DNA from: Funiculus sociatus GB2-C1
GTDB taxonomy: Bacteria > Cyanobacteriota > Cyanobacteriia > Cyanobacteriales > FACHB-T130
NCBI RefSeq assembly: GCF_039962115.1
Contig: NZ_JAMPKJ010000007.1
Span: forward strand, 1-64,000
DNA length: 64,000 nucleotides
Reading direction: 5' to 3'
Both the position numbers and the translations under genes were made by a program. Shown piece after piece: positions 42,039 through 47,153 of this stretch. The notes under the pieces are model-generated. The model worked only from the letters and a program-made list of their open reading frames with translations. It was not told the origin of the DNA and made no database searches. Every line of letters starts with the position of its first letter. The first letter of the stretch is position 1.

Positions 42039-45000
42039 GTGAAATTAGGATTCAGAAGAACTAGCCAAATTTTAGGTATATTTTTAGTCGCAGCAGCAAC
42101 AGGCGGCAAATACGTGCTGGCACAAACCATAGTTCCAGCATCTGACGGCACAGGAACGATTGTCAGTCCTTCGGGAACTTCTATATACAATATCACTGGC
42201 GGTCAGCTATCGGGAGACAAAGCGAATCTGTTTCACAGCTTCACCAAGTTTGGCATCGACCAAAACCAGATTGTCAACTTTCTCTCAAACCCATCCATCC
42301 AGAACATTTTTGGCAGGGTAGGAGGTGGAGAAGCCTCGGTTATTAACGGTATTATCCAGGTTACAGGCGGCAACTCCAACTTATTCTTGCTCAACCCAGC
42401 TGGCATCGTTTTTGGTGCAAACGCTATTCTTAATGTGCCTGCCTCTTTTACTGCCACCACCGCTACTGGTATCGGCTTTAATTCCGGTTGGTTTAATACA
42501 ATGGGCGGCAATGATTATGCTGCTTTGGTAGGCAATCCTAATGCTTTTGTCTTCAACACCTCCCAGCCTGGAACCATTATCAACGAAGGTCAGCTGTCTG
42601 TAGGCACCAATCAAAATCTCACGTTGCTGGGCGGCACTGTGGTTAGTACAGGAGAGTTGCAAGCACCAGGCGGTAAAATCGTCGTTGCCGCTGTACCTGG
42701 TGAAAGCTTGGTTCGTATCTCTTTGGCGGGAAATCTGCTGAATTTGGAGGTGGGGGCTGGGGACAGGGGACTGGAGACTGGAAATCCTAATGCCTTATCT
42801 TTGCCCCAACTGCTTACGGGTTCTGGTGTGGGGAATGCCACGGGGTTGACACTGGACAACAATGGTCAAGTGCGACTGACAGGCTCTGGATTGTTGGTAG
42901 AAAATGGAGATGTAGCAATCAAGGGAGCGATCGCTACTCAAACAGCTACACTATCAGCAGCTAACAACCTGACTCTGGTGGAAAGCCAGCTGTTGACAAC
43001 TGGCAACTTACAGTTGTTGGCTCAAAATACGGTGCGGGTGCGAGATAGTGTGGCGAATCCCTTTATCGCCCATGCTGGAGGCAATCTCTTCATCCAGGGC
43101 AATCAGAACATTGATATCCTAGCCCTAAATCATCTTTCACAAACACCTTTCGTTAGCGGCGGCGACCTGAATCTGGTTAGCGATGGCAATATCTCTGGGG
43201 ATACTCACTTTGCCAGTGGCGGTAGTTTGTCGATGCTGAAATTGTCAGGTCAACCAGGAGACTTTGTTAGTCTCTATGACCCAATTATCAGCTCTAATGG
43301 TAATGTTTCTTTCGGAAATTATAGTGGTGTCGCTCTCAAGATTGAGGCTAAAGGTAGCATCCAGGGTGGCAATATTACGATTACAGGGCCAGACATTAAC
43401 ATACTTCCGGGTTCAGACCCAGATATTGCCCTTTTAACCGATCCGACTACAAATGGCGCATTGATTTTGCGGGCGGGCGTGGACGAATTAGCCAATCCTG
43501 TTAATATTTCTGCACCTTTCTCATCCCCCGCTACCGGCTTGTTGCCAGCAGGCAGTATTCAGGTTGGCAGAATCAACACGGGAACTAACATTAATGGTGT
43601 AAATGCTGGCCCTGTAATTGTGCAGGCTAAGGGCAATATTAATATTTTCAGAATTAGTGCTAGTTGGAATAGTTTAACAGGTTCAGGTAATGGCGGCAAT
43701 ATTAATTTAGATGCGGGGGGAGACATTACTATTAATGATAGTAATGTGTCAGTAAGTAGTAATGGAAATGGCGGCGATATCACTTTCAATGCTGCTGGCA
43801 GTATTTCATTTCTAGATGTTCTCTCTAGAGGTGAAAATGGTATTGGTGGCAATATTTCTATCACTGCTGGCAGCAACATTGAAAGCGATGACATTCAGAC
43901 CAGAGGTGGTTTAAATGGTGGGAATATCACCATTACCAGCACTGGTGGCACGATTAATACTACTGCGAGAAATGCCGAAGGTAGCGTGGCCTCTTGTATT
44001 TCAAGTTCGGGTGTTTTTTGCGCTGCTGGCAGTACTGGTGATATTAGTCTCACGGCAGCTAATGGCATTATTTTAGGCGGTTCCAATGTGACTGGTTCCG
44101 ATCAAACTGGCACTTTGAAGGGGAGGAATATCACCCTAACTAGCAATGAAATTGATTTTACGAGAGATAGACCGATTAGCGGGACTGGGGATATTACTAT
44201 TCAACCGTTTACGCCAGACGGTGCGATCGCTATCGGTGGAATTGACAACACTACAACTGCTTTGGATCTGACTGCAACTGAGTTGGGTTTATTGCAAGAT
44301 GGCTTTGCTTCGCTTACCATCGGCAGAATTGACGGTAGCGGGACGATTACCATCCCCAATAACATCATCTTCAGCGATCCGGTGAAGATTCAGTCTCCCA
44401 ACGGCGCGATCGCTGTTAATGGCATAATTACTGGGACAGGGAACGCCTCAATTACCCTCAACAGTGCCTCCACAACCTTAAACGCTGGCATCGCTACAAG
44501 CGGTACTGACATCACTCTGGGCAATAATATCCAGCTTGTTACTGATGTCACCCTCGATTCTGGCGGTGGAAATATCACCTTCAACGGCAGTGTTGATGGA
44601 AATCAACGCTTAACATTAAACTCAGGCACAGGCACAACGACCTTTCTCGGTGCCGTCGGCAGTAACAATCCCCTAAATATCCTCAGCACCGACGCTCTGG
44701 GGAATACACAAATTAATGGAAATGTCAACGCAAGTCAGATAAATTTTCAGGACACTTTAGAGTTGCTATCTGACGCGACACTGACAGCTGCTGAGATTAA
44801 TTTGGGGAACGCAGTCAGCGGTAGCGGCAGGAATTTGGGATTGCAACCTTTAACACCCAGTCAAAATTTAACGATCGCAGCGACAGGAACATCATTTGCA
44901 GATGGCTTCAACTCAATAACTATCGGACAAGCTGACGGATCAGGCGCGATCGCATTATCGGGTGACATCAGCTTCAACGATCCAGTGAGCATACGATCGC

Positions 45001-47153
45001 CACTTTTGTCAGGTTCCATCACCGCAACTGGAACGATTACGGGGTTAGGCGATGCCTCCATTACTCTACTGGCAAACCAGAACATCACCACAAACAACAT
45101 CACCGCCAATGGGGGAATTAACCTTACCAGCCTTCAAGGATCTGTTAGCACCAGAAACCTGAATTCTTCAGGAGTGACTCAGGGTGGAGACATCAATATT
45201 ATTGCTAGTAACACAATTACCACTGGTGCGATCGATAGCTCTAGTTTAGGGGATGGCGGTAACGTCACTTTAGATCCAACTGGCGATATCCAAGTCGTCT
45301 CCATTAACGCCCAAGGCGGCACCAATGGCACTGGCGGCAATGTAGACATTACCACAGAGAGATTTTTTCTGGCTACAGGCACCTTTACCGACCAAAATCA
45401 GGAAATAGCAAGCATTTCCACAGCCGGGGGGGTAAGGGGAGGAGACATTACAATTCGGCACGGTGGTGGTTTGCGAAACACTCCCTTTAATGTGGGTGAT
45501 GCCACCAACAACGGGACAAGCGGTTCTCTGACGAGTGGAAATTATGCGATCGCGCCCAACCAATCGTTTCCCGGCAGCTACACTTTAGGCAATATTAAAA
45601 TCATTACCGATTTCCCGCCGCCGGTATCGCGTCCCCCGATGATGCCGCCTGAATTGCCACCCCCTCCAATGGTGATGCCGCCTGTAGTGCTACCCCCTCC
45701 AATGGTGATGCCACCTGTAGTGCTACCCCCTCCGATTGCTATGCCACCTGTAGTGCCGCCCCCGGATGTTGTGATGCCACCTGTAGTGCCACCCCCGGAT
45801 GTCTCGTTCCCAAGCCAAACAGCTTTAATTGATTCACAGCTTGAGTCGTTACAAATTTCCCCCAATAACGATCTGGACTCAGATTCGATTGACTTTCGGA
45901 TTGGGGAGTTAGAACAGAACTTCACCCAGCAATTTCAGCAACATCTTAAACAACCAGCGATCACTCGCGGCCCCTCATCCCTGTCAGATATTCGCAACCA
46001 GCTGGGAAAAATCCATTCAGCAACAGGCATTAAACCAGCGATCATTTACGTCTTTTTTGTTCCTGCTGTCAAAGTATCCGTTGATTCAGAATTAATCAAA
46101 AATCCAAACTCTGAACTCAGAAGTCCAGAAGACGAACTGGAACTGGTTCTGGTGACTGCCAAAGGGAAAACCATTCGCAAGGTGACTGGTGTCAAGCGAT
46201 CGCAAGCGCTCAAAGTCGCGCAACAATTTAGTAACAAAATCAAAAATGTTGCCAGCCAGCAGGGGTACCTCACCTCTTCCCAGCAACTCTATCAATGGCT
46301 GATAGCGCCCCTAGAGGCTGATTTACAAGCTGAAGACATCCAGAATCTGGTATTTATTTTAGATTCCGGTTTACGCTCCATGCCCCTAGCTGCTCTTCAT
46401 GATGGCAAACAATTTTTGGTGGAAAAGTACAGCCTCAGCTTGATGCCCAGTCTCACCTTAACTGACACCCGCTACACAAACATCAAAAACTCCAAACTCC
46501 TAGCAATGGGTAGTTCAGAATTTTCTAATCAAAAGCCTTTACCAGCGGTACCAGTGGAGTTAGCTACGATTACGCAATTGTGGCAAGGTAAGTCATTTCT
46601 TAACGATGGCTTCACTCTAGAAAATCTTAAAAGCCAGCGTTCCAAGCAGCCTTTTGGTATTGTCCACCTGGCAACTCATGCCGAATTTCAGCCCGGAGAC
46701 ATCAGTAATTCTTATATCCAGTTGTGGAATCAACAACTACGCCTCGACCAACTGCGAACTTTGGGCTGGAATAACCCGCCCGTAGAATTATTGGTACTAA
46801 GTGCCTGTCGCACAGCATTGGGAGATGAAGAAGCTGAGTTGGGGTTTGCTGGATTGGCGGTACAAGCAGGCGTTAAGTCAGCGCTAGCAAGTCTCTGGTA
46901 CATCAGCGACGAAGGGACATTAGGAGTGATGACCGAGTTTTATCAGCAGTTGAAGAAGTCACCTATCAAGGCAGAGGCTTTGCGGCAGGCACAAATCGCT
47001 ATGCTTAAGGGGCAAATTCGCTTGCAGTCAGGATATTTATATAGCTCTAAACAAAGGGTGGAGCTCCCGGCTGAATTATCAAATTTAAGAAATACAACTT
47101 TTACTCATCCCTATTACTGGGCAGCATTTACTATGATTGGCAATCCTTGGTAA
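42039..47153 (+). CDS. Filamentous haemagglutinin-type adhesin fused to CHAT protease
   Basis: 1704 residues, GTG start. Signal peptide (1-29, ending VLAQT). About 35-140 is the TPS haemagglutinin domain ([46 protein letters not shown]). About 200-1180 is a right-handed beta-helix of degenerate repeats ([21 protein letters not shown]). A Pro-rich linker (about 1190-1260) has [13 protein letters not shown] repeats. About 1390-1704 is a CHAT caspase-like protease with catalytic His1547 (HLATHAEF) and Cys1590 (LSACRTALG), plus [17 protein letters not shown] passenger should cross the outer membrane through a TpsB pore, but none is in the window. A short heptamer insert encodes about 237-249. It probably acts outside the cell or at the surface; the protease target is unknown. 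Confidence 0.9.
42749..42783. repeat. Degenerate GGGGACT heptamers inside adhesin gene
   Basis: GGGGGCT, GGGGACA, GGGGACT, GGAGACT in 7-nt register, translated as [11 protein letters not shown]. No C-rich partner arm. Confidence 0.75.
45618..45815 (+). repeat. Pro-rich coding repeats of the adhesin linker
   Basis: Direct repeats of about 33 and 30 bp (CCACCTGTAGTGCTACCCCC-type) encode [13 protein letters not shown] and [13 protein letters not shown] units. Likely variable in copy number between strains. Confidence 0.85.

Follow-up and report, generated by a model that had tools for sequence, protein, structure and literature searches.

The gingipain-haemagglutinin polyproteins of Porphyromonas gingivalis, RgpA and Kgp, combine adhesin domains with a caspase-fold cysteine protease in a single exported chain, which the gingipains themselves process; they are type IX-secreted, with the protease (family C25) N-terminal and the adhesin part C-terminal. 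In two-partner secretion (TPS), in which an exoprotein (TpsA) is taken up by a pore (TpsB), the C-terminal end matters too: according to the available part of a 2017 review, at the ends of HMW1 and HxuA a disulfide loop remains in the periplasm and keeps the protein locked into its pore, a separate protein serves as protease of FhaB (SphB1) and of CdrA (LapG, which cuts the periplasmic tail), and the genes of maturation proteases appear outside TPS operons (PMC5422565). Here we describe a gene at positions 42039-47153 (plus strand) of a 64,000-nucleotide stretch of the cyanobacterium Funiculus sociatus GB2-C1 (contig NZ_JAMPKJ010000007.1, our C7, positions 1 to 64,000; "the window" below is the whole of this stretch), which encodes a TpsA with a caspase-like CHAT domain as its own C-terminal end. 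We give an even chance to the reading that this CHAT would serve in cis, as a self-processing or releasing module of the chain that carries it. The CHAT reads as a C-terminal processing or anchoring peptidase because genes of this family lie next to TPS genes, have been fused to them repeatedly, stand in TpsA proteins that lack the usual Cys-pair module, and covary with the tails of neighbouring TpsA proteins.

The gene is a single uninterrupted open reading frame (ORF) of 1704 amino acids (aa) with a GTG start and AAAGAG just 5' of it. The initial annotation had described one chain in which the TPS domain is followed by a long passenger, then by a Pro-rich linker and lastly by CHAT, and the ORF and Pfam bear this out. 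Inspection of the sequence predicts a Sec signal peptide at the N-terminus (aa 1-29, 42039..42125, GTG start included; cut probably after ..KYVLA), in line with the proposed export; in a hydrophobicity scan, 43 of 49 fused relatives (see below) show a hydrophobic 15-mer ahead of their TPS domain or at its start. The TPS secretion domain itself (aa 38-232, 42150..42734) is matched by Pfam PF05860 (E 4.4e-35), by NCBIfam TIGR01901 and in the genome search; it contains the motifs NPSI (84) and NPAGI (119), and the NCBIfam model adhes_NPXG matches aa 65-142, so that the chain has at its N-terminus the TPS domain with NPxG-type motif by which a TpsA is recognised. The long passenger that follows (aa 233-1102, 42735..45344), rich in Gly, Asn and Thr and without a Pfam match, is probably a beta-helix, to judge by its composition and the TPS class. 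It closes with a conserved end-cap directly before the linker (aa ~1103-1192, 45345..45614), defined by an iterated profile seeded with aa 1103-1214, which matches 50 of 58 CHAT-fused TpsA proteins as against 1 of 64 tail-bearing ones. The Pro-rich linker (aa 1193-1258, 45615..45812, by our own count of residues) is encoded by DNA with three repeat copies at 33-nt spacing. Pfam places the CHAT domain at aa 1413-1702 (46275..47144; PF12770, E 8.4e-74, 249 bits against a cut-off of 24, profile positions 3-289 of 289). At E 0.01, TPS and CHAT are the sole Pfam domains of the chain and no TPR domain is found in it; its Cys residues number three (653, 661 and 1590).

Does this CHAT look like a working peptidase? 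The His-Cys dyad is intact and lies exactly where the initial annotation had put it, at His1547 (in HLATH; codon 46677..46679) and Cys1590 (in SACRT; codon 46806..46808); both residues are invariant in the 45 rows of alignment A3, the Cys is the only one of the domain, and the dyad is kept in 9/9 fusions of GB2-C1 and in 49/49 intact fused relatives. The structure prediction that had been proposed as a check was made for aa 1300-1704 (45936..47150; AlphaFold2 with 44 relatives, pLDDT 92.5, pTM 0.92): a caspase-like double fold, complete with an N-terminal helper half and a catalytic half, is predicted with high confidence and is of the Csx29/separase kind. The region named for that check, aa 1390-1704, lies within the predicted CHAT fold, which in the model already begins near aa 1315, ahead of the Pfam boundary. 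The closest match among structures is Csx29/TPR-CHAT (Z 25.6 over 325 residues, 13% identity; Foldseek E 6.8e-14), followed by separase (Z 24.2) and the gingipains (Z 17.6-18.6, RgpB 18.6); a further match to the CHAT fold is the transmembrane anti-sigma factor DdvA (Z 17.5). A sequence search of solved structures with alignment A1 returned nothing at E<=1, so the structural kinship is one of fold. Substitution rates in 14 disjoint pairs of relatives, picked by rule, give a nonsynonymous-to-synonymous ratio (dN/dS) of 0.066-0.212 for CHAT, lower than that of the passenger in 14/14 pairs; by this measure the window-type domain is under purifying selection. The dyad in 49/49 fused relatives and the low dN/dS speak against a dead peptidase, and sequence and model agree in making the CHAT a catalytically competent-looking cysteine peptidase. 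Elsewhere in the same genome a CHAT with a hydrophobic N-terminus (L058; contig C15:97117-99624) has Tyr and Ala in place of the dyad.

The fusion is one of a family. GB2-C1 has 14 TPS matches, 25 CHAT matches and four TpsB (ShlB) matches, and of the TPS proteins, nine continue in frame into a CHAT, each confirmed by Pfam. A scan of one genome per species (84,980 species; records near the window's own genome may be missed) gave at least 525 confirmed relatives, the best 80 of which were fetched. All 80 have cyanobacterial titles; 49 are intact fusions, 10 have a TPS ORF just upstream, 13 are short CHAT-only ORFs, seven are cut by a contig end and one is long without TPS. A rare local oddity is thereby ruled out, and the belief expressed in the initial annotation that such fusions exist in databases was justified. 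Over the 49 fusions TPS identity tracks CHAT identity (Mantel r 0.60, 0/999 permutations), and the two parts therefore appear to have long travelled together in the window's clade; within GB2-C1 the CHAT end of the window chain is 63-71% identical to those of eight paralogues (C59, 33%). It had also been said, rightly, that the 64-kb window holds no TpsB: the four ShlB matches are on contigs C28, C39, C48 and C51, and a TpsB lies within the fetched stretch at 10 of the 49 fused loci. A phage-borne form did not emerge from 42 pattern matches in viral contigs (0 confirmed; the phage record collection lay outside this search). The candidate of a defence system was dropped: PADLOC gives the window chain no family, one neighbour-type TPR-CHAT matches a TPR model only, and a CHASE2-CHAT matches nothing. 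Several individual genes may be put on record. One paralogue, L046:3368-9811 (contig C39:21367-27810), has a glycosyltransferase family 2 domain at aa 6-165, in frame and ahead of TPS and CHAT, either as a fusion or because the start is placed too far upstream. Tandem TPS-CHAT gene pairs occur in L049 (contig C62) and L062 (Trichocoleus sp. FACHB-40), and the CHATs of one locus pair with those of the other (SH-like approximate likelihood-ratio test, SH-aLRT, 100), a sign that GB2-C1 stands close to Trichocoleus. A plasmid of Nostoc sp. NIES-3756 has a standalone window-type CHAT, 60% identical (L210:7605-8957).

Fusion has probably occurred more than once. In a tree of CHAT domains (rows with X or shorter than 250 aa left out; L079, L112 and L127 put in the fragment class) the window clade of 108 rows (SH-aLRT 99) includes most short standalone CHATs, and beside it stands a clade of TPR-CHAT proteins (SH-aLRT 95); in a second tree the fused L187_958 is labelled "near". 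A TPS-TPR-CHAT protein of genome G109 (L209, 1626 aa) is placed inside the TPR-CHAT clade, and the TPS-TPR-CHAT of GB2-C1 contig C59 groups with a third CHAT branch (SH-aLRT 99); that of genome G099 (L252, 1983 aa), which is outside the trees, has an end like that of C59. At least three lineages of TPS-CHAT fusion is the reading of these sequences with fewest changes.

Separate CHATs keep company with TPS genes as well. Among 117 Cyanobacteria genomes, 37 have TPS above the curated cut-off and 37/37 of these carry the window's CHAT family (E<=1e-60), as against 1/80 of those without, in which 11 genomes with weaker TPS matches are counted; within order and class the figures are 37/37 and 1/12. 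The suggested search for co-occurrence of the two domains thus came out positive. In 10 near-closed genomes a search with A1 at E 1e-30 gave 65 CHATs (one of 82 TPS rows, below the cut-off, was dropped): 12/16 in the strong band are fused to TPS and 0/49 in the weaker band, whose members are mostly TPR-CHAT proteins of ~850-1000 aa; a 13th fusion, L252, was missed by A1 and found later. For 28 of the 49 separate CHATs there is a TPS gene no more than 15 kb away, against an expectation of 1.99. We fetched the surroundings of 20 of these 28 and of all 21 that lie farther away (19 stretches). An N-terminal hydrophobic segment is present in 21/22 unfused CHAT ORFs near TPS and in 21/23 far from it, compared with 113/326 background ORFs, and the general statement that CHAT proteases are mostly cytosolic accordingly fails for this group. 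Since these separate CHATs have hydrophobic N-termini and no TPS domain, the compartment common to both arrangements would be the periplasm. Three loci of GB2-C1 illustrate the gene order: TpsB, TPR-CHAT, TpsA, DUF928 on contig C28; TpsB, TpsA, TPR-CHAT, DUF928, CHASE2 on C51; and two TpsA, TPR-CHAT, DUF928, CHASE2-CHAT on C34. DUF928 and CHASE2 genes are both present at 10 of the 20 near loci (L170-L189); among the fused stretches (L060-L139) one or the other occurs in 12/49 and both in 10, some of which are close relatives. Because these genes recur beside both, fused and separate CHATs share a neighbourhood. Neither gene is in the window, and neither is seen in 37/49 fused stretches, a count limited by flank and contig end. 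The same two genes recur beside a TpsA and an exported-looking CHAT at L048 and L053 also, and the CHASE2 protein of the latter (L053:16478-18856) itself carries a CHAT part.

If the CHAT is the C-terminal end of some TpsA proteins, how do the others end? Unfused TpsA proteins have a conserved C-terminal module of ~130 aa, in which a Cys is followed by a TG[R/K]GGLP-like turn, by the segment VEAQGW...DG..VLVA and by a last Cys that is mostly within 11 residues of the end; L053:6160-8607 and L053:8738-12781 are examples. A profile of this module, built from 60 of the proteins on which it was run, matches 66 of 74 TpsA proteins taken as unfused, 0/58 CHAT-fused ones and 2/499 background ORFs, and both background matches look like TpsA ends. 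In a separate hold-out test, a profile made from six genomes found 22/24 TpsA proteins in five other genomes and again 0/58 fusions. (The 74 include L252 and two TpsA-TpsB chains in which the module is internal; the eight without a match comprise L252, C23 of GB2-C1, which ends in another Cys pair, and six frames that are short or have an odd end.) The Cys pair is present in 60/64 tail-bearing TpsA proteins, and in 47/60 the turn between the two Cys has its R or K, while any Cys in the last 40 residues is found in 0/58 fused proteins. GB2-C1 by itself gives the same picture, with a Cys-pair end in 5/5 unfused and 0/9 fused TpsA proteins (Fisher p 5e-4). The module has no Pfam or NCBIfam match in the scanned GB2-C1 proteins. 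By analogy it resembles the disulfide anchor of HMW1 and HxuA, its two Cys presumably forming the disulfide. In the sampled fusions, then, to go by their sequences, the CHAT takes the place of the usual Cys-pair end of a TpsA. A remnant of that end survives in the G109 fusion (L209): it matches positions 2-116 of the 131-position anchor profile (E 5.5e-23), and at the point where the last anchor Cys would be expected the TPR repeats set in, so that in sequence it looks like two adjacent genes merged at the anchor. A few chains contain TpsA and TpsB in one frame, L256:797-5122 (G008; identified by Pfam) and L214 (G002:C1:1805008) and L231 (G066:C1:1709581; both by TPS and ShlB matches that share a frame), with the order TPS domain, passenger, Cys-type anchor segment, POTRA, ShlB barrel.

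Where CHAT and TpsA are separate, the two covary. Identity between TpsA tails correlates with identity between the neighbouring TPR-CHATs (within 15 kb) with a Mantel r of 0.65 (0/1999 permutations) over 19 loci, namely 16 of the 20 near loci and three of GB2-C1; L173, L175, L178 and L187 were left out because the TpsA lacked a clear tail, had its frame broken or was fused to a CHAT. The TPS domain of the same proteins correlates with the CHAT at r 0.47, below the tail's value, and the partial correlations with CHAT are 0.58 for the tail (given the TPS domain) and 0.31 for the TPS domain. This is the pattern that an enzyme and its substrate would show.

The favoured sequence of events is as follows. 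The signal peptide would lead the chain into Sec export; the TPS domain would be taken up by one of the four TpsB pores that GB2-C1 encodes elsewhere; the passenger would fold outside the cell; and the CHAT, arriving last, would fold at the pore or on its periplasmic side, the site at which an unfused TpsA has its Cys-pair anchor. There it would cut its own chain between passenger cap and CHAT, so that the fibre is matured or released; before cutting, it would perhaps hold the fibre as a "plug". At other loci this function would fall to the separate, exported TPR-CHAT, acting in trans upon the TpsA encoded next to it. The initial annotation had offered three guesses, contact-dependent cleavage of neighbours, self-release and kin recognition, and self-release is the favoured one of these, with the difference that it would operate at the periplasm-side C-terminal end and not at a displayed tip.

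A number of points weigh against self-processing in cis. The Mantel set is small (19 loci), and shared ancestry is removed from it only in part. C-terminal position alone makes module and domain exclude each other to some degree, and the exclusion is not absolute: L209, which was not counted among the 58, combines parts of both. The CHAT could emerge last from the pore rather than stay in the periplasm. No conserved cut motif is found in the Pro-rich linker of the fusions; 31/58 have a 40-aa segment with at least 10 Pro ahead of CHAT, of variable sequence, and 27/58 fall below that figure, and the linker as a conserved cut site was dropped as a candidate because it is not conserved. Short CHAT-only ORFs are found at 13/80 loci (10 after removal of three fragments or passenger pieces), one such ORF is present in genome G103, which has no TPS, and 21/49 separate CHATs have no TPS gene within 15 kb; since short CHAT-only ORFs exist, a CHAT can act apart from TPS. 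The scarcity of Cys in the window's CHAT was set aside as a proof of export: a CHAT at contig C32 without visible signal peptide likewise has a single Cys, which makes Cys depletion a weak argument. Finally, a single old fusion followed by many losses, as the alternative to several fusions, formally still stands on the present sequences.

A broader proposal, which we hold to be somewhat less likely than not, makes the exported CHAT family a third TPS partner, dedicated to the Cys-pair anchor of TpsA in trans as well as in cis. In the trans arrangement (TpsA, TpsB and TPR-CHAT, often with DUF928 and CHASE2) the peptidase would trim or sort the anchor, possibly at TG[R/K]GG; in the cis arrangement anchor and peptidase would have merged into a C-terminal CHAT module that holds the fibre and then frees it on a signal.

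That the CHAT is instead a surface protease acting in trans, exported with the fibre to cleave a neighbour, the sheath or surrounding proteins in the manner of gingipains, seems unlikely to us, though several points favour it: the CHAT is C-terminal on a TPS exoprotein, a class normally exported outward; its fold is close to that of the secreted gingipains (Z 18.6); standalone CHATs of the window clade with exported-looking N-termini exist; and the passenger evolves faster than the CHAT, as in adhesins. What speaks for the periplasm, however, speaks against it, since the separate TPR-CHATs have no TPS domain to take them farther, and so do the position of the CHAT at the site of TpsA anchors and the covariation of TpsA tails with neighbouring CHATs. 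Contact-dependent cleavage and kin recognition find no positive support, with the VENN motif absent and the CHAT end conserved among paralogues; the one gene that recurs downstream encodes a CHASE2 protein and is not an obvious immunity gene. Surface display with cleavage of neighbours is possible, and less favoured than C-terminal self-processing.

Two further alternatives are improbable, and about equally so. The CHAT might be a structural anchor, a bulky periplasmic plug that retains the fibre, its proteolysis being incidental or for another purpose. Replacement of a module that resembles the HMW1/HxuA disulfide anchor is what one would expect of such a plug, yet a plug needs no dyad, and the dyad is intact in 49/49; that a CHAT can exist without it is seen from the Tyr/Ala form on contig C15. 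Or the CHAT might act on other envelope proteins (TpsB, the sheath, signalling proteins of CHASE2 type), with the adhesin as mere carrier. The joint presence of CHASE2 and DUF928 at 10/20 separate TPR-CHAT loci, and of one or the other in 12/49 fused stretches, some directly downstream, fits this; their absence from the window and (within the limits of flank and contig end) from 37/49 fused stretches does not, and repeated fusion links the CHAT to TpsA itself. A CdiA-like contact-dependent toxin with the CHAT as delivered effector is very improbable, for although this too is a TPS exoprotein with a C-terminal enzyme, and polymorphic toxins are described as containing caspase-like domains, in the role of toxin or of releasing domain (PMC3482391, in its available part), the reading is weakened by the absence of a VENN motif from the window chain, the nine GB2-C1 fusions and 48/49 relatives, by the conserved C-terminus (63-71% identity to eight paralogues; C59, 33%), and by the downstream ORFs, compared at the 42/49 fused loci with at least 1.2 kb downstream, in which no immunity gene was recognised (a small, fast-changing one could escape) and the sole wide cluster (nine loci; the others have at most four) is largely the CHASE2 protein.

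What follows from this? Gene adjacency, recurrent fusion and occupation of the anchor's place link one protease family to TpsA. If self-processing in cis is right, a good part of the cyanobacterial CHAT proteases would be relocated to the envelope; and the anchoring and shedding of giant cyanobacterial surface fibres would become a question that single-residue mutants can answer.

The rest of the window may be described briefly. A terminator-like stem-loop lies 3' of the gene (47239..47271, plus strand; consensus scan), its 15-pair stem, the longest of seven listed, beginning 86 bp past the last base of the stop codon; the number of such sites is near chance (7 against 6.0 expected). Upstream of the gene, on the minus strand, 37387-38652 encodes an SLH-domain protein with a weak TrbI/VirB10-like part, and at 8305-13797 and 55904-61354 there are two very large multi-PAS hybrid histidine kinases of 1830 and 1816 aa.

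How does the window chain compare with what has been described? LepA of Pseudomonas aeruginosa is a peptidase of another type and has no CHAT. It is nevertheless like the window chain in being, according to the available part of the review, both TPS exoprotein and protease (PMC5422565). With HMW1, HxuA, FhaB and CdrA, as far as that account of them goes, the window chain shares the TPS domain, the long passenger and, as proposed here, a C-terminus on which retention or release depends, and differs from them in having its protease in cis and no Cys-pair end (PMC5422565). With CdiA it shares the C-terminal enzyme of a TpsA; VENN, a polymorphic C-terminus and a recognised immunity gene are what it lacks. 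In polymorphic toxins a caspase-like releasing peptidase is placed just upstream of the C-terminal toxin domain (PMC3482391, in its available part); in the window chain, on the other hand, CHAT ends at residue 1702 of 1704. Csx29/TPR-CHAT of Craspase is the closest solved fold and likewise a His-Cys peptidase; it is CRISPR-bound and RNA-guided, in the part of the literature on it that was available, whereas the window chain is without TPR (present in its relatives C59, L209 and L252) and only 13% identical. HetF of Anabaena, the cyanobacterial CHAT protein that is the source of the domain's name, is a different design, with CHAT in aa 1-555, TM and TPR domains and a role in cell division; the available part of that paper does not mention a TPS domain for it (PMC8406250). 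The open-licence PMC literature yielded no account of a CHAT-haemagglutinin/TPS fusion and none of DUF928 together with CHAT, and the available parts of PMC9284123, PMC8580901 and PMC10907252 have nothing on TPS-CHAT fusions. The combination of CHAT with TPS, and its relation to the TpsA anchor, did not turn up in the literature searched. With the gingipain polyproteins the likeness is one of fold (Z 17.6-18.6) and of plan, a caspase-fold protease and an adhesin on one chain, so that an exported protease-adhesin chain is as such a known kind of protein. The differences are those of route and order: the window chain is of type Vb, its passenger is N-terminal and its CHAT C-terminal, and Pfam at E 0.01 finds in it CHAT and TPS and no C25 peptidase domain. 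The window chain may thus work like the gingipain polyproteins without being one of them.

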